Shown: in pieces, positions 6,696 to 35,689 of the stretch | Numbering within the stretch: position 1 is the stretch's first letter | Layout: each line of letters begins with the position of its first letter | From: Flavobacterium anseongense | GTDB lineage: Bacteria > Bacteroidota > Bacteroidia > Flavobacteriales > Flavobacteriaceae | Assembly: GCF_021608185.1 (NCBI RefSeq) | Contig: NZ_JAKIHN010000005.1 | Location: 1 to 64,000 of the forward strand | Direction: 5' to 3' | Length of the DNA stretch: 64,000 nucleotides | The notes under the pieces: model-generated | Database searches by the model: none | What the model was told of the DNA's origin: nothing | What the model saw: the letters and a program-made list of their open reading frames with translations, nothing else | Program-made: the position numbers and the translations under genes

Positions 6696-8081
6696 CTAGT
6701 TGTTAAAAGTTGGTTTTAATTCGGATTCGATGATGTAATCCGGTGAAATAATGCTTTTCAAAATTGCTGCGGCTCCGTCTTTTCCTGCCTGAACAGCGTC
6801 TACGACTTCCTTACCACCGTTAACACAATCGCCCCCGGCGAATACTCCAGCCAATTTGGTAGCTGATTTTCCGCTAACCGTAATTTTTCCATTATTGTTT
6901 TCGATATTATTTGAGTTGACCAAAGAACTGAAAGGCATTTGCCCTGCTGCCTTGATAACCATATCAACATCGAGTGTAAAAGTTTCGCCTGAAACAACCG
7001 GACTTCTTCTTCCGCTGGCATCTGGTTCTCCGAGTTTCATTACATCGCAAACCAATTGGGTTACTTTTCCGTTTTCGCCTTTGATTTCTTTTGGAGCGGC
7101 CAGCCAGGTTATTTTACAACCGTCTAATTTGGCAATGTCTAATTCTTTTTGGGTACATGGCATTTCGGCTTGTGTTCTTCTATATACTAAAGTCACATCG
7201 GAAGCTCCTAATCTTTTGGCTTGGGTTGCTGCATCGATAGCGGTCATCCCCATTCCGATTACGGCTACTTTATCACCGACTGCAATTTTAGAATAATCGT
7301 TATCGCGTAATTCGTAAATGAATTTGATGGCGTCTTCAACACCTTCTAAATGTTCACCCGGAATATCTAACTGACGTGCCAATCCCACTCCAAATGCCAT
7401 ATAAACGGCATCGTAGTTTTTCTGTAAATAATCGAGCGTTACATCTTTCCCAAATTCCTGATTGTATTTGATTTCGATTCCGCCAATAGATGTGATATAA
7501 TTCACCTCATCTTCACAGAACTCTGGTGTTACTTTGTAGGCTGCAATTCCGTAGGTCATTAGTCCGCCACCTTTGGCTTCTTTTTCGTAAATCGTTACAT
7601 CTATTCCTTCACGGCTTAGGGTGTGTGCGCAGCTCAATCCGGCTGGGCCGGCACCAACAATCGCAACTTTCTTTCCTTTGGAAGGTTTTCTGTCAAATAA
7701 CTGCCAGTTGTTAGCCATAGCTTTTTCGGTAGAATAGCGTTGCAAACGGGCAATGTTGATTGGCTCTTCGTGCATCATATTGTACACACAAGCGCCTTCA
7801 CATAATTTTTCTACCGGACACACTTTACTGCATCCAGCTCCCATAATATTAGAAGCAAAAATGGTATGTGCTGAACCTTTAAGGTTTTCTGTGGCGATTT
7901 GTTTGATGAATTTTGGTACGTTAATCGATGTCGGACATGATTTCATACAAGGCGGATCGTAACAGAACAGGCAACGGTTTGCTTCTGTCAAAGCTGCATC
8001 TTTGGTTTCAAACGGCGGATGAATATCGGCAAAGTTCTCCTGATATTCAGACGCTGTTAATCGGTTATTTTTAATACTCAT
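6696..8081 (-). CDS. preT: NAD-dependent dihydropyrimidine dehydrogenase, flavin/Fe-S subunit
   Basis: A 461-residue GltD-like oxidoreductase that passes electrons from a nicotinamide cofactor through FAD and Fe-S clusters to PreA. The N-terminal cysteines CLFCYDPPCMKSC (about 37-49) and CSKVCPVEKLCEGAC (about 83-97) bind clusters. The FAD-binding motif is IVGAGPAGLSCA (about 140-151) and the second dinucleotide fold is VIGMGMTAIDAA (about 273-284). The order preT-preA with a 4-base gap matches the known PreTA arrangement of Escherichia coli. Confidence 0.94.
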   Translation of the reverse strand: MSIKNNRLTASEYQENFADIHPPFETKDAALTEANRCLFCYDPPCMKSCPTSINVPKFIKQIATENLKGSAHTIFASNIMGAGCSKVCPVEKLCEGACVYNMMHEEPINIARLQRYSTEKAMANNWQLFDRKPSKGKKVAIVGAGPAGLSCAHTLSREGIDVTIYEKEAKGGGLMTYGIAAYKVTPEFCEDEVNYITSIGGIEIKYNQEFGKDVTLDYLQKNYDAVYMAFGVGLARQLDIPGEHLEGVEDAIKFIYELRDNDYSKIAVGDKVAVIGMGMTAIDAATQAKRLGASDVTLVYRRTQAEMPCTQKELDIAKLDGCKITWLAAPKEIKGENGKVTQLVCDVMKLGEPDASGRRSPVVSGETFTLDVDMVIKAAGQMPFSSLVNSNNIENNNGKITVSGKSATKLAGVFAGGDCVNGGKEVVDAVQAGKDGAAAILKSIISPDYIIESELKPTFNN

Positions 8082-10517: not shown

Positions 10518-11963
10518 CTACTTAGCCACTCTGTTTTTCATTAATAACCAGTAAACAAATCCACTTAAGGCAAAGCCAACGAACCAGGCATAACTGTATA
10601 ATCCGATTAACCAACCTGGAAACATATCTGCTGGAAATACTTTTATGGTTGTGAAAAATCCGGGAACGTTTGGTATAATTCCAATTATCAATGCGATAAT
10701 TGCACTGAAATTAAACCCTTTTGAAAAGGAATAAATTCCATTTGTATTGTACAAATCATCAACTACTAAGGTTTGTTTTCGAACAAAATAGTAATCGACT
10801 ATCATGATTCCGCCAACTGGTCCAAGTAGGCTTGAATAGCCGACTAACCAAGTGAAAATATAGCCTGTTGGGTCAGCGATTAATTTCCATGGAAATATTA
10901 GAATTCCGATAATTCCTGTGATATAACCGCCTTTTCTGAAATCGATTTTTGATGGAGAAAGATTCGCAAAATCATTTGCCGGACTAACAATATTTGCGGC
11001 TATGTTTGTAGCCAATGTTGAAATCGCAACTGCTATCATTGCAACGCTTACTAATAGTTTACTATCAAATTTTCCTGCTAAAACTACAGGATCCCAAATC
11101 ATGGTTCCGAAGACAATTGTTGTTGCTGAAGTTACCACAACTCCAACAAAAGCAAATAAAGTCATCGATGTTGGCAAACCATAAATCTGTCCTTTTATCT
11201 GTGCTTGTTGCGATGTTGCATATCTTGTAAAATCGGGAATATTTAACGACAACGTTGCCCAAAATCCCACCATTCCGGTTAAGGCCGGAAAGAAGAAAGT
11301 GAAGAAATCGGTAGTATTGGTAAATTTTGATGGTGTGTCTAAAATTGGTCCCAAACCGTGTGCTGCACTTAATGCCCAGAATAATAAGGCAAGTGCTGCG
11401 ACCGGTAAAAAGATGGCTTTGAAAACCAATAATTTTCGGATGCTGTCAACGCCTAAATACACTACATACATATTCAGTAGCCAAAACAAGATGAAACAAA
11501 TTGCCGGTCCGGTTTGTAATCCCCACGAATCAGGGAAGATTTGTGGTAAGGTTTCTATTGATGGAATCCATAAACGCGCCATTTGGAATAGGGCAAATCC
11601 GCCAATCCAGGTTTGAATTCCGAACCATCCGCAGGCTACAATCGCCCGAAGCAAAGCCGGAATATTAGCACCCGCTGTTCCGAAACTTGCTCTGGCAAAA
11701 ACTGGAAACGGAATTCCGTATTTAGCTCCGGCGTGACCGTTTAAAATCATGGGAATCAAAACAACGGTGTTTCCTAAAAATATGGTTAGTATTGCCTGCC
11801 ACCAATTCATTCCGCCTTCTATCAAAGAACTCGAAAGCATATACGTTGGAATACAAAGACTCATGCTTATCCAAAGTGCTGCGTAATTCCATGTTGTCCA
11901 AGTTCGCTTTTCGTTCGAAATTGGAGCCAGGTCTTCACTATACAAAGAGGAATTTGTATTCAT
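10518..11963 (-). CDS. NCS1-family nucleobase:cation symporter
   Basis: A 481-residue inner-membrane transporter of the nucleobase:cation symporter-1 family, with about twelve hydrophobic helices. Family-like segments include WTTWNYAALWISMSLCIPTY at the first helix and an FARASFGTAGANIPALLRA segment (about 92-110) typical of NCS1 proteins for uracil, allantoin and hydantoins. In this operon uracil, thymine or a hydantoin is the expected substrate. The last codons run into a CTGAGT-type repeat. Specificity cannot be read from sequence. Confidence 0.92.
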   Translation of the reverse strand: MNTNSSLYSEDLAPISNEKRTWTTWNYAALWISMSLCIPTYMLSSSLIEGGMNWWQAILTIFLGNTVVLIPMILNGHAGAKYGIPFPVFARASFGTAGANIPALLRAIVACGWFGIQTWIGGFALFQMARLWIPSIETLPQIFPDSWGLQTGPAICFILFWLLNMYVVYLGVDSIRKLLVFKAIFLPVAALALLFWALSAAHGLGPILDTPSKFTNTTDFFTFFFPALTGMVGFWATLSLNIPDFTRYATSQQAQIKGQIYGLPTSMTLFAFVGVVVTSATTIVFGTMIWDPVVLAGKFDSKLLVSVAMIAVAISTLATNIAANIVSPANDFANLSPSKIDFRKGGYITGIIGILIFPWKLIADPTGYIFTWLVGYSSLLGPVGGIMIVDYYFVRKQTLVVDDLYNTNGIYSFSKGFNFSAIIALIIGIIPNVPGFFTTIKVFPADMFPGWLIGLYSYAWFVGFALSGFVYWLLMKNRVAK

Positions 11964-11985
11964 CGGTCTTCTGATTGGTTGAATT

Positions 11986-13338
11986 TTATACTAAAGCTTC
12001 GTCTGAAATTTTTAAGGCTTCGCTGATAATCGCTAATCCTTCGTCAATTTGATCTTTGGTTACACACAATGGTGGCGCAATGAAAATATAACCCCAACGC
12101 ACAAAGGTGTACATTCCTAATTGTCTAATCTTAGCTGCTATTTGATTGGATACTTTCATATCATCAGCAGTTGCGTTATAAGGTGCCATTAATTCGCCTG
12201 TAGCTTTGTTTTTTAAAACGTCTAAACAGCCCAAAAGGCCAGTGTTTCTGAATGCTCCCATACTTGGATGATGACTTCTCATTTCCTCGATTCTGGACTC
12301 TAAATAGGTCGACATTTCACGAGTATTCTCAATCAGTTTGTCACTTTCGTAGATGTTGATTACTGCCAAAGCCGCAGCTAATGCAACCGGATGACCGTTA
12401 TAGGTCAAGCCAATCATCATTGGTGTGTTTTCAAATTTTTCCGCAATCCTATCCGAAACCATCAAACAGCCTAATGGAAGATAGGATGAAGTCAATCCTT
12501 TTGCCATACAAACCATATCGGGAACGATGTCATGGTTTTCGAAACCGAACCATTTTCCGGTGCGACCGAAACCACTCATAACTTCATCGGCTATGAATAA
12601 GATTCCGTACTTTTCACAAAGTGCTTTTACTCCTTTTAAATATCCTTTTGGATAATGAAGACAACCTGAAGAACCGCTTTCGCCTTCAAAAATGAAAGCT
12701 GCAATATTGGTTTTCCCTTCTAAATGAATTACTCTTTCGACATATTCCAAACTCAAACTCAACTTGGTAGCATTGTCTAAATCTTTCATCCCGAAGAAAT
12801 AGTAGGGATCGTCTAAATGAACCGCATTGGGCATTTGTTGCGAATCATTTGCTAATTTTCTTGGATCTCCACCAACGGTCATTCCACCGATTGAACCTCC
12901 GTGAAAAGCTCTGTATCTTCCTATGATTTTGTGTCTTCCTGTATACAATCTTGCCAGTTTGATAGCGTTATCAATTGATGAAGTTCCACATAACGTGTAG
13001 AATGCTTTGTTCAAATCACCCGGACAGATTTCAGCTAACTTTTTAGATAATTTCGCTCTGATTTCTGTCGTACAAGATGGTGTTACATAGCTCACTTTTT
13101 GCATTTGTTCAACAACTGCATCGGTCACACGTTGGTCACCATGACCAATATTTACCGACATCAAACCCGAAGAAAAATCGATTATTCGGTTGCCGTCATA
13201 ATCGTATAAGTAAACGCCTTCGGCTCTTTCTATGGCAATTGGGTTCACGGGAGCTTGTGCTGACCATGAAAACAAACTGTACTCTTTGCTGTCTTTGATG
13301 ATTTGTTCTTTCGTCATTTCTTGTTCTTTCGTAATCAT
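11986..13338 (-). CDS. Class III (omega) aminotransferase, probable beta-alanine/beta-aminoisobutyrate transaminase
   Basis: A 450-residue PLP-dependent enzyme. The cofactor Asp lies in FIADEVMSGFGRTGKW, the Schiff-base Lys in VCMAKGLTSSYLPLG, and the TLCGTSSIDNAIKLAR stretch is the phosphate-binding segment. Context points to transamination of beta-alanine (to malonate semialdehyde) and of beta-aminoisobutyrate (to methylmalonate semialdehyde). It lies upstream of the transporter and downstream of the CoA-acylating semialdehyde dehydrogenase. The N-terminus has a short duplication (TKEQEMTKEQ), so an internal ATG at 13317 is an equally good start. Confidence 0.92.
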   Translation of the reverse strand: MITKEQEMTKEQIIKDSKEYSLFSWSAQAPVNPIAIERAEGVYLYDYDGNRIIDFSSGLMSVNIGHGDQRVTDAVVEQMQKVSYVTPSCTTEIRAKLSKKLAEICPGDLNKAFYTLCGTSSIDNAIKLARLYTGRHKIIGRYRAFHGGSIGGMTVGGDPRKLANDSQQMPNAVHLDDPYYFFGMKDLDNATKLSLSLEYVERVIHLEGKTNIAAFIFEGESGSSGCLHYPKGYLKGVKALCEKYGILFIADEVMSGFGRTGKWFGFENHDIVPDMVCMAKGLTSSYLPLGCLMVSDRIAEKFENTPMMIGLTYNGHPVALAAALAVINIYESDKLIENTREMSTYLESRIEEMRSHHPSMGAFRNTGLLGCLDVLKNKATGELMAPYNATADDMKVSNQIAAKIRQLGMYTFVRWGYIFIAPPLCVTKDQIDEGLAIISEALKISDEALV

Positions 13339-24683: not shown

Positions 24684-27083
24684 ATGCTAAAAAAAACACT
24701 ACTCCTACTACTACTCTTTTTCTTTGCCATCACAAATGCGCAAAAGAAGATAAACTTAGATGAAGGTTGGAAATTCCATCTCGGAAATTCGGCCAATCCT
24801 GATAAGGATTTCGATTACGGAAATAAGTTGCTATTACACAAATCAAATGTCTTTGAAACAACGATTATCAGTCCAAAATTTGTTGATTCTACCTGGACAA
24901 AGGTTGACGTCCCTCACGATTGGGTTGTGGCACTTCCTTTTGTAAAATCAGCAACACATGAAATGGATAGTCATGGTTACAAACCTGTTGGCGGATTGTA
25001 TCCTGAAACGAGTATTGGTTGGTACAGAAAGCATTTTTCTGTAGATAAAAAAGACGAAGGAAAACGTTTCGAAATCCAATTTGATGGCGTTTATAGAAAT
25101 GCTGCTGTTTGGGTAAATGGTTTTTACGTTGGCACCAATTTTAGTGGTTATGTTGGCAAATCCTACGACATCACTGATTATATGAATTTTGAAAATGAAA
25201 ATGTAATCGTTGTTCGTGTAGATGCAACGCAAAGCGAAGGTTGGTTTTATGAAGGCGCCGGAATTTATCGTCACGTTTGGTTAAACATTCGCAACAATGT
25301 TCATATTCCGGAAGATGGTGTTTTTGTTTATTCAACTGTAAATGGTAAAAATGCTTCCGTAACGATTGAAACAGAAGTCGAAAACAAAAATTTGACTTCT
25401 TCAAAAGGAACTATTTATTCTTATGTAACCGATAGAAATGGAAAACAAATTGCCAAAACTTCGGAACAAAATTTCACACTTTCAGTCAATGGAAAAACTA
25501 CTGTCAAGCAAAAAATTACTTTAAATAATGCCAATTTATGGTCATTAGAAAATCCGTATTTGTACAAAGTCGTTTCTGTTGTAAAGCAAGACAATCAGAT
25601 TGTCGATAAAAAGAAAGTCAATTTCGGAATCAAAACGGTGCGATTTGATGCCAATGAAGGTTTCTTCCTTAACGGAAAACATATCAAAATTCAAGGCACA
25701 AATAATCATCAGGATCACGCTGGTCTTGGAAGTGCATTGCCCGATTTTATGCAATATTACCGCATAAAACTATTAAAAGAAATGGGTTCTAATGCTTACA
25801 GAACAAGTCATAATGCTCCGACTCCGGAACTTTTAGAAGCCTGTGACAGTTTGGGAATGTTGGTTTTAGATGAACAGCGATTATTGAATAGTAGCCCTGA
25901 ATATGTTGACCAATTCCAGCGATTACTTCGTCGTGACCGAAATCATCCTTCCGTATTTTTATGGTCGATTGGAAACGAAGAACAAAACATTCAGGGGAAT
26001 GAATACGGCAAACGAATTGCGCAATCGTTATTGGCTATTCAAAAGAAATTAGATCCTTCGCGAACGAGTACGTATGCTGCCGATATGGGCAATGATTTTA
26101 AAGGTGTAAACGAAGTGATTCCGATTCGAGGATTCAATTACCGCCAATTTGCTGTAGCCGATTATCATCGCGATCATCCAAATCAGCCTTTGCTTGGAAC
26201 CGAAATGGGAAGTACCGTAACCACTCGTGGCATTTATGAAAAAGATGAAATCAAGGCCTATGTTCCCGACCAAGATATTACCGCTCCATGGTGGGCAAGC
26301 AAAGCCGAAGATTGGTGGAAATTAGCCGCCGAAAATAAGTATTGGTTAGGTGGTTTTGTATGGACAGGTTTTGATTATCGTGGTGAACCAACGCCTTATA
26401 AATGGCCAAATATCAATTCGCATTTCGGAATTTTAGATGTTTGCGGTTTCCCGAAAAACATTTATTACTACTATAAAAGTTGGTGGACCAACGAAGATAT
26501 CCTTCATATTTCTCCACATTGGAATTGGCAGGATAAAATTGGAAAGCCAATTGATGTTTGGGTAAACACCAATGCCGATGATGTTGAATTATTTTTAAAC
26601 GGAAAAAGCTTGGGTAAAAAAGTAATGCCACGGAATTCCCATCTGCAATGGCAAGTCAATTACGAGCCAGGAACATTGGAAGCCATTGCATATAAAAAAG
26701 GAAAAAAATTAACTACTAAAGTAGAAACCACAGGTCAGGCATCAAAAGTTATTGTTTCCCCAGACAAAACTGTGATGCTTGCCGATGGTAAAGACGGAAC
26801 GGTTATCAATGTTTCTTTCGTCGATACAAATGGCAAAGAAGTTCCCGATGCAAACAATATGATTTACTTTTCTATTTCAGGCGATGCCAAAATTATTGGT
26901 GTTGGCAATGGCGATCCAAGTTCGCATGAAGCAGATAAATGTGCGGGTGGCATGTGGCAACGAAGCGCTTTCAACGGAAAATGCCAAGTCATTATTCAAG
27001 CTGGGAAAACTGCCGGTTCAGTAATATTGGAAGCCAAATCCAACGGATTGGTTTCCGCTTCAACAACAATACAAATCAAATGA
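24684..27083 (+). CDS. Exported GH2 beta-galactosidase
   Basis: A 799-residue family 2 glycoside hydrolase with a signal peptide (MLKKTLLLLLLFFFAITNAQ). Order: jelly-roll sugar-binding domain, immunoglobulin-like domain, TIM barrel, then extra C-terminal beta domains of the DUF4982 and invasin-like type. Acid/base Glu432 in WSIGNEEQ, nucleophile Glu507 in LLGTEMGST. The ATG at 24684 directly precedes the signal peptide and lies 4 bases after the galactanase stop. It would release galactose from galacto-oligosaccharides in the periplasm. Its stop overlaps the galK start. Confidence 0.93.
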   Translation: MLKKTLLLLLLFFFAITNAQKKINLDEGWKFHLGNSANPDKDFDYGNKLLLHKSNVFETTIISPKFVDSTWTKVDVPHDWVVALPFVKSATHEMDSHGYKPVGGLYPETSIGWYRKHFSVDKKDEGKRFEIQFDGVYRNAAVWVNGFYVGTNFSGYVGKSYDITDYMNFENENVIVVRVDATQSEGWFYEGAGIYRHVWLNIRNNVHIPEDGVFVYSTVNGKNASVTIETEVENKNLTSSKGTIYSYVTDRNGKQIAKTSEQNFTLSVNGKTTVKQKITLNNANLWSLENPYLYKVVSVVKQDNQIVDKKKVNFGIKTVRFDANEGFFLNGKHIKIQGTNNHQDHAGLGSALPDFMQYYRIKLLKEMGSNAYRTSHNAPTPELLEACDSLGMLVLDEQRLLNSSPEYVDQFQRLLRRDRNHPSVFLWSIGNEEQNIQGNEYGKRIAQSLLAIQKKLDPSRTSTYAADMGNDFKGVNEVIPIRGFNYRQFAVADYHRDHPNQPLLGTEMGSTVTTRGIYEKDEIKAYVPDQDITAPWWASKAEDWWKLAAENKYWLGGFVWTGFDYRGEPTPYKWPNINSHFGILDVCGFPKNIYYYYKSWWTNEDILHISPHWNWQDKIGKPIDVWVNTNADDVELFLNGKSLGKKVMPRNSHLQWQVNYEPGTLEAIAYKKGKKLTTKVETTGQASKVIVSPDKTVMLADGKDGTVINVSFVDTNGKEVPDANNMIYFSISGDAKIIGVGNGDPSSHEADKCAGGMWQRSAFNGKCQVIIQAGKTAGSVILEAKSNGLVSASTTIQIK

Positions 27084-28267
27084 AGAAATTAATCCAACAT
27101 ACAACGGAACATTTTGAAAAGTTGTTTCACAACAAGCCGGAATACATTTTTCTGTCTCCGGGAAGAATCAATATTATCGGAGAACATGTTGACTATAACG
27201 ACGGTTTTGTAATGCCGGCCGCCATCAATAAATACATTTGTTTTGCGATTTCAAAAAATGAAAACAGCGAGTGCGCTCTTATTGCCAAAGATTTAAACGA
27301 AGCCTACAAATTTGATTTAAACGATGAGTTAAAACCAGTCGACAAAATGTGGGTGAATTATATTTTGGGTGTGTTGAGTCAGTTAAAAGACAAACACGGA
27401 TTGGCACAAGGTTTCAATATTGTTTTCAGCAGTACGATTCCGATGGGCGCCGGACTTTCTTCTTCAGCAGCTCTCGAATGCGGCATTGGCTATGCTATGA
27501 ATACCTTGTTTGATTTGGGTTTAACCAAAGAACAAATCGCACTCATCGGACAAAAATCAGAACATACTTTTGTGGGCGTGAATTGTGGTATCATGGATCA
27601 GTTTGCTTCGGTTTTTGGCAAAAAGGATAAAGTCATCAAACTCGATTGCAATACTTTGGAATATGAATATTACAATGCCGACTTCAGGAAATATTCGTTA
27701 CTTTTATTGGACAGCAATGTAAAACACACGCACTTAACTTCGGGTTATAATGTGAGAAGAAAGGAAGTCGAAAAAGGATTGGCTATTATAAAAAAGAACT
27801 TCCCAAATGTAAAAACATTCAGAGATTGCACTGAAGAAATGGTTTTGGAACTAAACGAACAATTAGGAAGAACAATTTTTAAACGCTGTCATTTTGTTGT
27901 GAAAGAGATTCAACGTGTTCGTGATGCTGCAACTGCTTTGAATAATTCTGATTTTGCAACATTAGGCAAATTGATGTCGGAAACACATAATGGTTTGTCC
28001 AAAGAATACGAAGTGAGTTGTGACGAAATTGACTTTTTAGTCGATGCTGTTCAACAGGATAAAACTGTTTTAGGATCCCGAATGATGGGTGGCGGGTTTG
28101 GAGGTTGCTCTATCAACTTAGTTGAAAAAGGAACCGAAGAAGTACTTATTAAAACCATTTCCAAAAGTTACTTAAACGCTTTTGGCATAGAATTAAAAGC
28201 TTATAAAGTAAAAATTTCAAAAGGCACAACGCTTTACAAAATCAAAAATGACACAATTCAACAATAA
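27080..28267 (+). CDS. galK: Galactokinase
   Basis: A 395-residue GHMP kinase that makes galactose 1-phosphate. The galactokinase signature GRINIIGEHVDYNDG is at 28-42, the ATP-binding MGAGLSSSAAL at 122-132, and a GSRMMGGGFGGCSINL motif lies near the C-terminus. The ATG at 27080 forms an ATGA overlap with the beta-galactosidase stop; the in-frame extension from 26939 lies inside that gene and is not used. Confidence 0.96.
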   Translation: MKKLIQHTTEHFEKLFHNKPEYIFLSPGRINIIGEHVDYNDGFVMPAAINKYICFAISKNENSECALIAKDLNEAYKFDLNDELKPVDKMWVNYILGVLSQLKDKHGLAQGFNIVFSSTIPMGAGLSSSAALECGIGYAMNTLFDLGLTKEQIALIGQKSEHTFVGVNCGIMDQFASVFGKKDKVIKLDCNTLEYEYYNADFRKYSLLLLDSNVKHTHLTSGYNVRRKEVEKGLAIIKKNFPNVKTFRDCTEEMVLELNEQLGRTIFKRCHFVVKEIQRVRDAATALNNSDFATLGKLMSETHNGLSKEYEVSCDEIDFLVDAVQQDKTVLGSRMMGGGFGGCSINLVEKGTEEVLIKTISKSYLNAFGIELKAYKVKISKGTTLYKIKNDTIQQ

Positions 28268-29300
28268 CGAACATCCACATAGAAGATACAATCCTTTGCT
28301 TGACGAATGGATATTGGTTTCGCCACATCGTAATAAGCGTCCCTGGCAGGGGCAAAATGAAAAACTACACGAAGACAATCGCCCCGAACACGATGAAAAC
28401 TGTTATTTATGCGCCGGAAATGTTCGTGCAAATGGTATAAAAAATCCTGATTACACGGATTGTTATGTATTCGAAAATGATTTTTCGGCTTTACTAAGAG
28501 AGGAAGTCAATTATGAAAATAAAAACAATTCCTTATTCCAATTAAAACCCGAAAGAGGCATCAATAAAGTCGTTTGTTTTTCGCCAAAACACAATATCAC
28601 TTTGCCGGAAATGGAAGTTTCTGATATTGAAAAAGTGGTGCAAACCTGGGCCGAACAATACATCGAATTGGGAAGTCACGACTATATCAACTACGTTCAG
28701 ATTTTTGAAAACAAAGGCAGCGTGATGGGTTGCAGCAATCCGCATCCGCACGGACAAATTTGGGCACAATCATCTTTGCCAACACAGGTTGAAAAAACTC
28801 AAAAAAGCCTTCGCGCCTATTTCGAAAAAAACAATTCGAGCTTATTAAAAGATTATTTAGAAGCCGAATTAAAAAAGGAAGAACGCATTGTTTTAGAAAA
28901 CAATCATTTTGCGGTCGTGGTCCCGTTTTGGGCAATCTGGCCATACGAAACGATGATTATCAGCAAGAGGCATTTTGGCAATATCATCGCGATGACGGCA
29001 GCAGAAACTTCAGCATTTGCCGAAATCATCAAAGGAATTACCGTGAAATACGACAACCTTTTTGAAACTTCTTTTCCGTATTCAGCCGGAATTCATCAAG
29101 CGCCAACCGACAGGGTTTCGCATCCCGAATGGCATTTTCACATGCATTTTTATCCACCATTATTGCGAAGCGCAACTGTGAAAAAATTCATGGTAGGATA
29201 CGAAATGCTGGGTGAAGCACAACGCGATATTTCGCCTGAACAAAGTGCTAAAATTTTAAGAGACTTACCAAACCAACATTATAAAACCAAAACCAATTGA
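28248..29300 (+). CDS. galT: UDP-glucose--hexose-1-phosphate (galactose-1-phosphate) uridylyltransferase
   Basis: A 350-residue HIT-superfamily enzyme of the Leloir pathway. Zinc ligands Cys52 and Cys55 in CYLCAGN, and the active-site HPH (166-168) in NPHPHGQIW with His168 as the nucleophile. It overlaps galK by 20 bases and precedes the symporter by 1 base. galE, the third Leloir gene, is not in the window. Confidence 0.96.
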   Translation: MTQFNNNEHPHRRYNPLLDEWILVSPHRNKRPWQGQNEKLHEDNRPEHDENCYLCAGNVRANGIKNPDYTDCYVFENDFSALLREEVNYENKNNSLFQLKPERGINKVVCFSPKHNITLPEMEVSDIEKVVQTWAEQYIELGSHDYINYVQIFENKGSVMGCSNPHPHGQIWAQSSLPTQVEKTQKSLRAYFEKNNSSLLKDYLEAELKKEERIVLENNHFAVVVPFWAIWPYETMIISKRHFGNIIAMTAAETSAFAEIIKGITVKYDNLFETSFPYSAGIHQAPTDRVSHPEWHFHMHFYPPLLRSATVKKFMVGYEMLGEAQRDISPEQSAKILRDLPNQHYKTKTN

Positions 29301-29301
29301 T

Positions 29302-30972
29302 ATGCAAACCTTAGCCACCCAAGATTATATTGTTTTCTTCCTGTATTTCGTCATTATCGTAGGCTACGGATTCTGGATTTACAACCGAAAAAAGAAAGCA
29401 CAAGCCAGCAGTAATGACTATTTTCTGGCCGAAGGTTCACTGACTTGGTGGGCGATTGGTGCGTCCTTAATTGCGAGTAACATCAGTGCCGAACAATTTA
29501 TCGGAATGAGTGGCAGTGGTTTCAAAATGGGTTTAGCAATTGCCACTTATGAATGGATGGCAGCGGCTACGTTAGTCATAGTTGCGGTTTTCTTTATGCC
29601 GGTTTATCTGAAGAATAAAATTTTTACGATGCCACAATACCTCAACAAACGTTACAACAGCAACGTGGCAATGATTATGGCGGTATTTTGGCTCCTGCTT
29701 TATGTCTTGGTGAATCTGACTTCTATTTTATATTTGGGCGCTTTGGCGATTAGCAGTATTTCGGGATTAAACATTACTTTTTGCATGATATTCTTGGCGT
29801 TTTTTGCTGTGATGATTACGCTTGGCGGAATGAAAGTTATTGGTTATACCGATGTGATTCAGGTGTTCTTTTTGATTTTGGGTGGATTGGTAACCACTTA
29901 TTTGGCTCTGAATTTAGTCGCAACCGAATTTGGTTCAACCGGAGTTATCAATGGATTTAATCTGATGCAGGAGAAAGCAGGTGATCATTTCCACATGATA
30001 TTTGATAAATCGAATCCCAATTATATGGACTTACCCGGATTATCCGTTTTGATTGGTGGTATGTTAATCATTAATTTGAATTATTGGGGTTGCAACCAAT
30101 ACATCACGCAAAGAGCTTTGGGCGCTGATTTAAAAACGGCACGTAGCGGAATCTTATTTGCAGCTTTCTTAAAATTACTAATGCCTGTCATCGTGGTTTT
30201 ACCGGGAATTGCGGCTTTTGTTTTATACCAAAACGGTCATTTTCAAACCGAGATGTTGCAGGATGGAAGCGTAAATCCTGACCGAGCTTATCCAATCTTA
30301 TTGAACTTATTACCTGTTGGATTAAAAGGATTGTCGTTTGCTGCGTTAACTGCGGCGATAGTAGCCTCTTTAGCCGGAAAAGCCAATAGTATTGCGACTA
30401 TTTTCACCCTAGACATTTATAAAACCAAATTAAATGTCGAAGCAGATGAAAAGAAATTAGTAAAAATCGGGAAAACAACTATTATAACCGCTATGATTGT
30501 AGCTGTGGTTGTGGCTCCATTTTTAGGTATCGATAAAAAAGGTGGATTTCAATACATTCAGGAATATACAGGTTTTGTGAGTCCGGGAGTTTTCGCGATG
30601 TTTATTCTTGGATTCTTCTGGAAAAAAACAACTTCAAATGCCGCTTTGTTTGCAACGATTGGCGGATTCCTATTCTCGATTATTTTCAAATTCATGCCTG
30701 CTTTTGTCGATTTATCATTCCTGAATCCGATGGGATTTGCTGTGCCAAATGCAGATGGCCTTTATGAAATTCCGTTTATTGACCGTATGGGATTTGTATT
30801 CCTGATTTGCGTGATTGGTATGTATTTCATCAGTAGCTATGAAAACAAAAAAGGCGTTCAGCCAAACGGTTTAGAAGTAGATAAAACGATGTTCAAAATG
30901 TCGCCGGGCTTCACAGTTGGAATGTTGATTATCACGGCTATTTTAGCTGCATTGTATACTGTTTTCTGGTAG
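29302..30972 (+). CDS. Sodium:solute symporter (SSS/SGLT family), probable galactose transporter
   Basis: A 556-residue inner-membrane transporter with about fourteen hydrophobic helices. SNISAEQFIGMSGSGFKMGLAIATYEW is the typical second-helix region of SGLT-like sugar symporters. It is the last gene of the galactan operon, so galactose is the expected solute. A terminator follows within 35 bases. Confidence 0.93.
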   Translation: MQTLATQDYIVFFLYFVIIVGYGFWIYNRKKKAQASSNDYFLAEGSLTWWAIGASLIASNISAEQFIGMSGSGFKMGLAIATYEWMAAATLVIVAVFFMPVYLKNKIFTMPQYLNKRYNSNVAMIMAVFWLLLYVLVNLTSILYLGALAISSISGLNITFCMIFLAFFAVMITLGGMKVIGYTDVIQVFFLILGGLVTTYLALNLVATEFGSTGVINGFNLMQEKAGDHFHMIFDKSNPNYMDLPGLSVLIGGMLIINLNYWGCNQYITQRALGADLKTARSGILFAAFLKLLMPVIVVLPGIAAFVLYQNGHFQTEMLQDGSVNPDRAYPILLNLLPVGLKGLSFAALTAAIVASLAGKANSIATIFTLDIYKTKLNVEADEKKLVKIGKTTIITAMIVAVVVAPFLGIDKKGGFQYIQEYTGFVSPGVFAMFILGFFWKKTTSNAALFATIGGFLFSIIFKFMPAFVDLSFLNPMGFAVPNADGLYEIPFIDRMGFVFLICVIGMYFISSYENKKGVQPNGLEVDKTMFKMSPGFTVGMLIITAILAALYTVFW

Positions 30973-34299: not shown

Positions 34300-34413
34300 A
34301 TGATTATGGATATCAACAAAAAAATTAATAAATTATTTGGAACCACTGCTTTTATAGCAATGCTTGCGGTGTTATTTCTTGTTTTTTATTTAACCCTGTT
34401 TGCTCCGGTTTAA
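34300..34413 (+). CDS. Candidate 37-residue single-helix membrane peptide
   Basis: An ATG-initiated frame of 37 codons with a positively charged start (DINKKINKLFG) followed by one strongly hydrophobic helix (TTAFIAMLAVLFLVFYLTLFAPV) and a stop. This is the layout of small bacterial membrane proteins. A second ATG at 34306 could be the start. A terminator-like hairpin follows at 34469-34504, so it may have its own transcript. It is in the region upstream of the HMA-like and globin-like genes, but no functional link is shown. Confidence 0.55.
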   Translation: MIMDINKKINKLFGTTAFIAMLAVLFLVFYLTLFAPV

Positions 34414-34468
34414 AACAAATGCTTGTGCTTAAATTACTTAAGATGTTTTGGTTAGTTTTGGTTGGAAA

Positions 34469-34504
34469 GAAAAGCGCTGTTTCGTGTCAAAGGCAGCGCT
34501 TTTC
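34469..34504. terminator. Hairpin terminator
   Basis: GAAAAGCGCTG (34469-34479) and CAGCGCTTTTC (34494-34504) form a perfect 11-bp stem with a 14-base loop, flanked by A- and T-rich ends. It separates the 37-residue peptide from the HMA-like gene. Confidence 0.7.
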
Positions 34505-34598
34505 GATTCAAAACATTCTTCTTTTCTATTTTTTTTCACTTTAAAAAACCAAAACTGTTCTTTTCACGTAAATCAATTTACAAACAAAAAAAAACATC

Positions 34599-35033
34599 AT
34601 GAAAATTAATAAGAAAATTAAAATCGCATTACTAAGCATACTAGGATTTTCCCTTTTGATGTTTGTGATATTGGTATATCACATTGCTAACGCAAAACCT
34701 ATCGAAAATGCAACAATACAAGTCAGCCGGATAGATTTCGACAAACCTTTTGATTCGTTAAGCACAATTGAAATCAAACAAAAATTACACAGTATTGCCG
34801 GCGTTAAAAGTGACATCATCGTAAAAAGAAACGTGGTTGTTTATTTTCACGACAACCGCATTGCCGACTCTAAAAAAGTTTACAATGAATTAATGACTAA
34901 AGGAAATTACAAAGCAGAACGATTTGTATTACCTGAAGGTCTGGCCAATAAACAAGTTTGCCCGGTGATAAAGAAAGATGGCCTGAGCTATAAGTTCACC
35001 AAGTTCATACAAGGAATTTTCAATAAATCTTAA
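34599..35033 (+). CDS. Membrane-anchored HMA-like (ferredoxin-fold) protein without CxxC
   Basis: A 144-residue protein. A signal anchor or signal peptide (about 7-30) is followed by a beta-alpha-beta-beta-alpha-beta pattern (about 38-112) resembling heavy-metal-associated domains: IQVSRIDF, a helix ending KLHSIAGV, paired strands DIIVKRNVVVYFHD, a helix KKVYNELMTKG and a last strand. The metal-binding CxxC of HMA proteins is absent; the only Cys is 121 in NKQVCPV. It precedes the globin-like lipoprotein gene by 12 bases, in likely operon. The fold assignment is my inference from the pattern. Confidence 0.65.
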   Translation: MKINKKIKIALLSILGFSLLMFVILVYHIANAKPIENATIQVSRIDFDKPFDSLSTIEIKQKLHSIAGVKSDIIVKRNVVVYFHDNRIADSKKVYNELMTKGNYKAERFVLPEGLANKQVCPVIKKDGLSYKFTKFIQGIFNKS

Positions 35034-35045
35034 ATATAAAAAACT

Positions 35046-35627
35046 ATGAAAAAGTATTCAAAATTTGCACTATGTGCATTAGTAATTGGGGCATTCGCAT
35101 TCGCCTCTTGTAGTGACGATGATGATTCGGCTCCGGCACCGGCATCAATCTATGAAAGATTGGGAGGAACAACATTAGTTGCAGATCCTGATAATCCCGG
35201 ACAAATGATAGAACAAGGGCGTTTAAGCTATCGTAAAGTGGTAAACTCAACCGTTGGGTTAATCGTAGCTGACGTACAAGCAGGTGCTTCTGGTAATTTA
35301 GGAGCTCATTTTGCTCCGATATTGGGAGAAGTTACCGCAGGAAATACTACCAATTTAGCAATATTGGTCGATAATTTAACCGACTTTTTCTCCTTTAACA
35401 CCGGAGGAACAAATGCTGTAAATACTTATTCAGGTTTGGATATGGTATCCGCTCACAATCCGGCTATGAATCCAAGAATGGGAACCACTTCAACTAATGC
35501 TGACTACACTAAATTTGAAGGCTATGTTGGTGCCGCTGCCGTACAAAATGGTGTTGCCGCCAACACCCAACTTTATGCCGACATAGTTGCCGTATTAGAA
35601 TCATTAAGAGATCCTATAGTTCAATAA
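35046..35627 (+). CDS. Lipoprotein with truncated-haemoglobin (group I) features
   Basis: A 193-residue protein with a lipoprotein signal (FASC, Cys22) and an acidic linker (SDDDDS). The mature part carries landmarks of truncated globins in order: IYERLGG at 35-41, an IVADVQAGASGNLGAHFAP segment (73-91) like the D..l...F region, GGTNAVNTYSGLDMVSAHNPAM (120-141) with His137 at the proximal-haem position, and a final helix ending LESLRDPIV. No Tyr is seen where the distal B10 Tyr is expected. It would be a haem protein outside the cytoplasm, linked to an HMA-like membrane protein. Family assignment rests on motif order only. Confidence 0.7.
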   Translation: MKKYSKFALCALVIGAFAFASCSDDDDSAPAPASIYERLGGTTLVADPDNPGQMIEQGRLSYRKVVNSTVGLIVADVQAGASGNLGAHFAPILGEVTAGNTTNLAILVDNLTDFFSFNTGGTNAVNTYSGLDMVSAHNPAMNPRMGTTSTNADYTKFEGYVGAAAVQNGVAANTQLYADIVAVLESLRDPIVQ

Positions 35628-35650
35628 TAAGGTTTTTGTTTTGTTTAGTG

Positions 35651-35689
35651 AAAAACGCTACACCAATCTTTTTTGGGTAGCGTTTTTTG
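35651..35689. terminator. Terminator after the globin-like gene
   Basis: AAAAACGCTAC (35651-35661) pairs with GTAGCGTTTTT (35678-35688) and lies between convergent genes, so it can serve both. Confidence 0.85.

Follow-up and report, generated by a model that had tools for sequence, protein, structure and literature searches.

What kind of system is formed by a globin-like lipoprotein and the membrane-anchored HMA-like protein encoded directly upstream of it? Truncated haemoglobins have mostly been studied as cytoplasmic proteins. A sequence-only reading of 64,000 nucleotides from Flavobacterium anseongense (assembly GCF_021608185.1, contig NZ_JAKIHN010000005.1, positions 1–64,000 of the forward strand; this whole stretch is the window below) had pointed to such a lipoprotein and grouped it with the HMA-like protein and a small peptide as a candidate system of the cell envelope. 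We find that the lipoprotein is predicted to contain a truncated globin domain and that its HMA-fold partner is a conserved neighbour. Our tentative reading, which we hold to be somewhat short of probable, is that the two genes make and equip an exported haem globin, with the partner as its dedicated haem handler. The two open reading frames (ORFs) are separated by 12 bases:

34599–35033, forward strand: membrane-anchored HMA-fold partner of 144 residues, with a transmembrane helix, an HMA-like domain and a C-terminal Cys-Pro motif (ORF, AlphaFold2, VIA-align (VIA), adjacency)
35046–35627, forward strand: globin lipoprotein of 193 residues (profile, hhalign, AlphaFold2, VIA)

The lipoprotein is predicted to carry a truncated globin domain

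The landmarks from which a globin had first been suspected, YERLGG, TGG...YSG...M..AH and a final LRDPIV, are all present in the 193-residue ORF, and they align by profile with genuine truncated haemoglobins. As single sequences, the globin, the partner and the small peptide have no Pfam or NCBIfam match above cut-off, and the globin, the only one of the three searched against the Protein Data Bank (PDB) with phmmer, has no match above cut-off there. Nor do any of the 13 members of alignment A1, the window protein included, reach the cut-off of Bac_globin (Pfam PF01152). We regard the window protein as a divergent relative of the PF01152 truncated haemoglobins and not as a curated member. Profiles bring out the relationship: a 13-sequence family profile retrieved 15 PDB sequences up to an E-value of 10, of which 13 are truncated haemoglobins (best E 0.012), and a profile of 18 sequences, among them relatives in other families, gave 24 truncated haemoglobins among 27 matches (best E 1.1e-7). 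His137 aligns with the proximal histidine of the PDB truncated globins (Y.G..M..AH) in both, and the hhalign comparison with eight truncated globins encoded in other genomes gave 99.8% (E 2.1e-28).

Structure prediction from 53 sequences, the window protein and Flavobacterium relatives, produced a globin fold, as the sequence-only reading had anticipated. The best AlphaFold2 model has a mean predicted local distance difference test score (pLDDT) of 81.4, and the remaining four range from 64.6 to 72.7. Truncated haemoglobins head the Foldseek results, with Paramecium 1dlw as the sole match below 0.001 (E 8.6e-4; template-modelling score by target 0.82). VIA aligned the model to 1dlw with a Z of 14.0 (1.9 Å over 115 residues); its top ranks are filled by truncated globins from every group together with Hell's gate globin IV, and non-truncated globins come after them at Z 6.7–7.9. 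Because helical models can reach such Z values through arrangement alone, it is the sequence profiles and the fold jointly that carry the assignment. Together they predict a lipoprotein whose globin domain is of the group 1 truncated type, with the 2-on-2 fold.

Group 1 truncated haemoglobins (1dlw of P. caudatum, 1idr of M. tuberculosis HbN and 8tls of Shewanella benthica; VIA Z 13–14) share with the window globin the fold, the proximal His, the CD1 Phe, the YERLGG start, the GG and the Y.G..M..AH signature. Unlike them, the window globin has a lipid-anchored export route, insertions of 17 and 7 residues, apolar distal residues and a constant membrane partner, and it lacks a Pfam match as a single sequence.

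The haem core is conserved and the distal pocket is apolar

Conservation was read from 108 loci (80 from named contigs, 13 from the same genus and 15 from other genomes), a set that is partly redundant in that one contig can stand in two collections (for example L076/L030 and L087/L031; L, G and C numbers are our designations for loci, genomes and contigs). The named contigs hold 163 loci encoding a relative, of which the best 80 were used; among these 80, the closest are from Flavobacterium. The window and the 108 loci together yielded 64 non-redundant globin sequences, window included, and the partner set comprises 74 non-redundant sequences. Two genome samples were also searched, one of 60 related genomes and one of 395 genomes of the class. 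The features of the globin are as follows:

35046–35111, forward strand: lipoprotein signal peptide, ending at lipobox Cys22 (64 of 64)
35112–35126, forward strand: SDDDD, at +2 to +6 following Cys22; matches the Bacteroides fragilis consensus for lipoprotein export
35175–35225, forward strand: insertion of 17 residues (44–60) ahead of the B helix of the globin, by alignment absent from bridge-type (see below) and cytoplasmic truncated globins
35310–35312, forward strand: Phe89, at the position that we take to be CD1 (63 of 64), aligned with the truncated-globin Phe by hhalign
35454–35456, forward strand: His137, predicted proximal (F8) haem ligand (64 of 64; 11 of 11 across bridge-type and cytoplasmic truncated globins)
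35469–35489, forward strand: 7-residue insertion after the proximal His, NPRMGTT (residues 142–148), by alignment

The invariance of His137, on which the globin assignment had been staked, is matched by that of Tyr128, Met133 and Leu107, each kept in all 64 sequences. It bears on the idea that the globin is degenerate and has lost haem binding. The missing Pfam globin match of the single sequence would fit such decay, but the conservation of the F8 His and the CD1 Phe, together with the profile and fold matches, makes it scarcely credible. Both insertions distinguish the window subfamily, and within the shorter one Arg144 (63/64) and Met145 (60/64) are nearly constant.

By alignment, the distal residues of the window globin are Val70, Leu107 and Leu111, at positions that we take to be B10, E7 and E11. 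Across the set these positions hold Val or Ile (62/64), Leu (64/64), and Leu or Phe (57 and 7 of 64); the polar distal set (Tyr at B10, Gln at E7/E11) is not found in the window globin. Because the distal positions are Val/Ile, Leu and Leu/Phe, the pocket seems to be without the usual hydrogen-bond donors. This composition counts against nitric oxide (NO) detoxification at the envelope, through NO dioxygenation or NO binding. M. tuberculosis HbN, known as an NO dioxygenase, is among the closest solved structures by VIA, but the Tyr B10 and Gln E7/E11 typical of HbN-type globins are replaced here. A link to denitrification found no clear association either (within the genus, nosZ is above cut-off in 4 of 14 genomes with the pair and in 3 of 23 without it, as raw counts), and we consider NO detoxification very unlikely.

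The signal peptide and the residues that follow it predict that the window globin is displayed at the cell surface; at least two acidic residues stand at +3 to +6 after Cys22 in 56 of the 64 sequences. The available text of one study gives SDDDD as the export-signal consensus of Bacteroides fragilis surface lipoproteins, reports that it moved a test lipoprotein to the Capnocytophaga surface, less well than the native signal, and gives the F. johnsoniae consensus as SDDFE (PMC5080379).

The partner has a predicted HMA fold with a Cys-Pro motif and no CxxC

The protein encoded upstream had been described as HMA-like, membrane-anchored and without the CxxC metal site but with one cysteine. The sequence bears out the residues (a single Cys, 121, and no CxxC), and AlphaFold2, Foldseek and VIA agree on the fold. 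The model (mean pLDDT 80.0, predicted template-modelling score 0.54) places a transmembrane helix at residues 5–31, a β-α-β-β-α-β domain at 40–108, a loop with Cys121 and a C-terminal helix. The Lys-rich N terminus predicts, by the positive-inside rule, an N-in/C-out topology.

34611–34691, forward strand: single transmembrane helix, residues 5–31 (AlphaFold2 model; sequence)
34680–34682, forward strand: His28 at the outer end of the transmembrane helix, conserved in the window subfamily (73 of 74 non-redundant partners)
34716–34922, forward strand: HMA-like (ferredoxin-like) domain without CxxC, residues 40–108 (AlphaFold2, Foldseek, VIA)
34959–34964, forward strand: Cys121-Pro122, the CP motif, candidate haem ligand (73 of 74; 21 of 21; 9 of 9)

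HMA domains lead the Foldseek results for the partner model, none below 0.001 (MerP 1osd, E 1.6e-3), and VIA gave Z 10.6 to 8rnz and 9.9 to 6a71; one relative (L149) exceeds the Pfam HMA cut-off by itself (25.4 versus 24.8 bits). The Cys-Pro pair is kept in 21 of 21 partners across families and in 9 of 9 when bridge types are included. Its sole exception among the 74 is L056, the ORF of which is shortened by an in-frame stop and ends before the motif; this locus was still scored as paired in the adjacency count below. His28 is kept in 19 of 21 partners across families.

The partner thus shares the β-α-β-β-α-β fold of the HMA metallochaperone domains (MerP, ATP7B, Atx1; PF00403) and differs from them in lacking CxxC, in its membrane anchor and in carrying Cys-Pro beyond the core. 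We do not class it as an HMA metallochaperone. A rival account would nevertheless make it a metal (copper) chaperone, with Cys121 as ligand, and have the globin obtain haem by an unrelated route. The fold, nearest to copper, zinc and mercury HMA domains, and the Pfam score of L149 speak for this account. Against it, CxxC occurs in none of the 74 non-redundant partners and in neither alignment A6 nor A7, the conserved Cys is part of a Cys-Pro pair beyond the HMA core, and the constant neighbour is a member of a family of haem proteins; we judge the account improbable. Cys-Pro motifs are described, in the available part of one source, as a recognized class of transient haem-binding site (PMC11442138). 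The Leptospira envelope protein LipL41 likewise binds hemin through Cys-Pro/Cys-Ser haem-regulatory motifs, with motif and lipid anchor on one protein, unlike the window pair; the accessible text names no globin or HMA domain in it (PMC3861479).

The two genes form a conserved unit

In the related-genome sample, both genes were found in the identical 14 of 60 genomes, all of one genus (14 of the 37 members searched). In one of these, G034, the two are split between contigs, and both matches begin no more than 65 bases from a contig start. The pair is present in cultured, named Flavobacterium species, such as the soil or rhizosphere bacteria F. anhuiense and F. pokkalii. A survey of the neighbourhood, which the sequence-only reading had suggested, identified a conserved unit: partner and globin are adjacent in 105 of the 108 loci. 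Of the three others, L042 and L048 start at a contig end and L157 has a divergent partner directly upstream. Seven further lipoprotein-globin loci retrieved with the globin profile (L179, L180, L184, L198–L201) are paired without exception. Outside the Flavobacterium set we count 25 lipoprotein globins (15 already in the 108, 7 from the globin profile and 3, L209–L211, reached through the partner), and all are paired, that of L211 having its globin by Pfam; L209, L210 and L211, found via the partner, are not independent evidence of pairing.

The class sample was examined from the partner's side. Eighteen of the 395 genomes have a strong partner match (E 8.1e-21 or better) and all 18 have the globin, 17 at full length and G246 from a further search. 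Because 13 of the 18, besides the window's own genome, had supplied rows of the partner profile, this count shows that there are no strong orphan partners and is not an independent find. Among the weaker partner-profile matches, seven loci were fetched: L209, L210 and L211 are real pairs, and L212–L215 proved to be ordinary HMA proteins and were dropped. Of the remaining weak matches only G300 (L157) was inspected, and weak globin-profile matches in G233, G405, G512, G712, G810 and G170 stand outside the tallies.

Truncated globins without a lipobox have no partner by profile (0 of 7). Four of these look Sec-exported (L181, L183, L185, L186) and three look cytoplasmic (L182, L202, L203).

Two loci of this kind carry further genes. 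The Sec-exported truncated globin of L181 (6909–8794) has neither lipobox nor HMA partner; two genes upstream of it, on the same strand, lies a gene for an extracytoplasmic function (ECF) sigma factor. L203 combines a cytoplasmic-type truncated globin gene with hemH and a HemJ-like gene at a distance of a few kilobases (7023–7397 and 11027–12652).

Five loci, L157, L184, L209, L210 and L211, encode what we call bridge types: lipoprotein globins above the Bac_globin cut-off, without either insertion, each adjoining a partner with transmembrane helix, HMA-like domain and Cys-Pro. They resemble the window system in the lipoprotein, the proximal His and the upstream partner, and differ in the features just named and in partners without the His at the end of the transmembrane helix. 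By their sequences the bridge types appear to connect ordinary truncated haemoglobins with the window family, and they suggest that the pairing predates the insertions.

A separate observation concerns G166, which shares a genus with the pair-bearing G258. On its contig C10 (493808–493960) a short piece of a partner gene survives, interrupted by two in-frame stops (E 8.7e-8), and the genome has no globin match; this suggests that the pair was lost in this lineage.

Neighbouring genes in relatives point to haem synthesis and a possible redox module

Neighbours were tallied in 113 called loci; L151 was excluded, since the gene caller missed its globin, though it is paired. The next gene on the same strand is hemA, for glutamyl-tRNA reductase, in 57 of the 113: 54 Flavobacterium-type loci together with L146, L155 and L200 from two other families (GlutR_N confirmed by Pfam in L030 and L155). 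In L030, hemA is followed by hemC, hemD and hemE, and on the other side lie, by Pfam, an AraC-type regulator, hemH and a UPF0093 gene that we take to be HemJ-like; similar layouts occur in other loci. A link to HmuY-type haem uptake was considered and rejected (within the genus, HmuY is above cut-off in 6 of 14 genomes with the pair and in 7 of 23 without it, raw counts, with no clear association). HmuY-type lipoproteins (PF14064), in the part of the source available, are Bacteroidota lipoproteins that handle haem (PMC5429918); they are a different family from the window globin.

Within five genes of the pair, cytochrome c occurs in 43, YceI in 42 and DUF5777 in 43 of the 113 loci, nearly all Flavobacterium-type; outside that set, the cytochrome module touches the pair in L146 (without YceI), L184, L209 and L211. 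This cluster recurs next to the pair in relatives and has the look of a redox module of the outer membrane. It invites the alternative that the pair serves oxygen or electron chemistry at the envelope, the globin being a terminal acceptor or peroxidase-like, fed by the cytochrome c lipoprotein, with DUF5777 and YceI as further parts. Gene order favours this: cytC-YceI-DUF5777-HMA-globin on one strand in L184, and likewise in L209, where a CHRD lipoprotein gene separates DUF5777 from HMA; HMA-globin-cytC-YceI-DUF5777 in L211; and HMA-globin-HemA-cytC-DUF5777-dihaem cytochrome, without YceI, in L146. Within the genus, DUF5777 is above cut-off in all 14 genomes with the pair and in 12 of the other 23, so it is also common in genomes without the pair; no paper of the open-licence PubMed Central names this family. 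Cable bacteria offer a parallel, in that pentahaem cytochromes with truncated-globin domains also place a truncated globin outside the cytoplasm with c-type haem partners and have been proposed as periplasmic oxidases; there, unlike in the window, the globin is fused to the multihaem cytochrome, and the available text mentions no HMA-CP partner (PMC11976967). The module, however, adjoins only 4 of the 25 non-Flavobacterium lipoprotein-globin loci and is absent at the window locus. An apolar distal pocket, moreover, stabilizes bound O2 poorly, and we consider this alternative unlikely, if worth keeping in view.

The CHRD-domain lipoprotein gene of L209 (6059–6499) lies on the same strand as its neighbours, with DUF5777 on one side and the HMA-globin pair on the other.

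A gene for an RskA-like anti-sigma factor, whether or not accompanied by its ECF sigma gene, stands no more than two genes away in 7 of the 25 non-Flavobacterium loci (L145, checked by Pfam, L147, L148, L152, L157, L179 and L210). L036 shows the same arrangement, and the ECF gene beside the Sec-exported globin of L181 may be set with these. They raise the prospect of an envelope sensor of gas, haem or redox state, in which the globin would sense a ligand and the partner relay to the ECF sigma/anti-sigma pair or to haem-gene control; apolar distal pockets suit CO or NO sensing. We think it quite unlikely: ECF and anti-sigma genes are numerous in these bacteria and the 7 of 25 has no random-gene baseline, none lies within five genes at the window locus, and the partner has few cytoplasmic residues for signalling.

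The window locus is flanked by a SnoaL-like gene (SnoaL_3 match) upstream and a gene for an NAD-dependent epimerase on the other side. Elsewhere in the window (27080–30972), consecutive genes for a galactokinase, a galactose-1-phosphate uridylyltransferase and a sodium/solute symporter resemble an ordinary galactose operon.

The upstream peptide is a real gene outside the system

Three features complete the locus:

34300–34413, forward strand: small peptide ORF of 37 residues (ORF listing)
34464–34509, forward strand: hairpin between the peptide gene and the pair, a likely unit boundary (−22.4 kcal/mol, z −4.3)
35650–35688, forward strand: hairpin with a T run after the globin gene, a probable terminator (−20.4 kcal/mol, z −6.6)

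The peptide is a real small protein under purifying selection: synonymous divergence (pS 0.36–0.74) exceeds nonsynonymous divergence (pN 0.10–0.32) in 9 of 9 comparisons, L052 being left out for an indel and the stretch of L054 ending in its stop codon. It was found by tblastn in ten close relatives only (E 4.2e-4 or better). We considered it as a third component and rejected it, given its confinement to close relatives and the strong hairpin after its gene. Of the three-part system first proposed, the reality of the peptide ORF and the unity of the HMA/globin pair survive, and the peptide's membership does not.

At 35–37 residues with a single helix, the peptide looks like an undescribed small membrane protein, although no literature search was aimed at it. 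The stretch of the first hairpin is conserved in some close relatives. Both hairpins emerged from separate folding; the terminator scan flagged neither, and Rfam gave nothing at the gathering threshold.

A tentative model for an exported haem globin

We return to the reading that we tentatively favour, that of a two-gene system with the partner as dedicated haem handler. The globin, a Sec lipoprotein, would cross the inner membrane unfolded and therefore would have to receive its haem outside the cytoplasm. The partner would hold haem in the periplasm through the cysteine of the CP motif, joined in the window subfamily by His28 at the membrane edge, and would pass it to the apo-globin before the latter travels on to the outer membrane and, probably, to the surface of the cell. 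We infer that the partner is the best candidate for extracytoplasmic haem insertion, and the frequent hemA neighbour fits a co-supply of haem. As a weaker step, the holo-globin may bind a diatomic ligand or exchange electrons with the cytochrome c encoded nearby. Of the haem, NO or metal handling once suggested for the envelope, haem is thus the best reading, with some support from the hemA and cytochrome neighbours of other loci; the nosZ comparison lends NO none. A bolder form of the model, in which the Cys-Pro HMA fold, its CxxC exchanged, loads haem b into a Sec-exported globin that then serves, on the surface of the cell, as the gas- or oxygen-facing end of a cytochrome c/YceI/DUF5777 outer-membrane module, seems to us rather unlikely.

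Several observations weigh against this model. HMA folds usually carry copper or zinc, the Cys-Pro pair is a weak motif, and its loop is poorly modelled (pLDDT below 50 at residues 118–124). His28 is absent from all five bridge-type partners. If the globin is surface-exposed, it could meet an inner-membrane partner in transit only. The neighbour adjacencies are raw counts without a random-gene baseline, from related loci that are not independent; among the 25 non-Flavobacterium lipoprotein-globin loci, hemA is adjacent in 3 and the cytochrome module in 4. The window locus has no hemA, cytochrome cluster or ECF/anti-sigma gene within five genes, and the cluster of cytochrome c lipoprotein, YceI, tRNA_anti-like protein and DUF5777 barrel in the same genome lies on another contig (L197, contig C46, 7438–9693).

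Among the titles and beginnings of abstracts listed for open-licence PubMed Central, a search with subscription papers outside it, none describes the pair or a Bacteroidota lipoprotein truncated globin. The globin is of a known kind, a truncated haemoglobin related to group 1; its lipid anchor, insertions, apolar pocket and constant HMA-CP partner distinguish it as a new form. Exported, lipid-anchored globins with a constant partner raise the questions of how a non-covalent haem protein acquires its haem outside the cytoplasm and of what role a globin plays on the surface of the cell. Gene order in relatives names HemA, cytochrome c, YceI and DUF5777 as possible co-workers, and, if the dedicated haem handler is the true role of the partner, an HMA fold would here have been redirected to haem.

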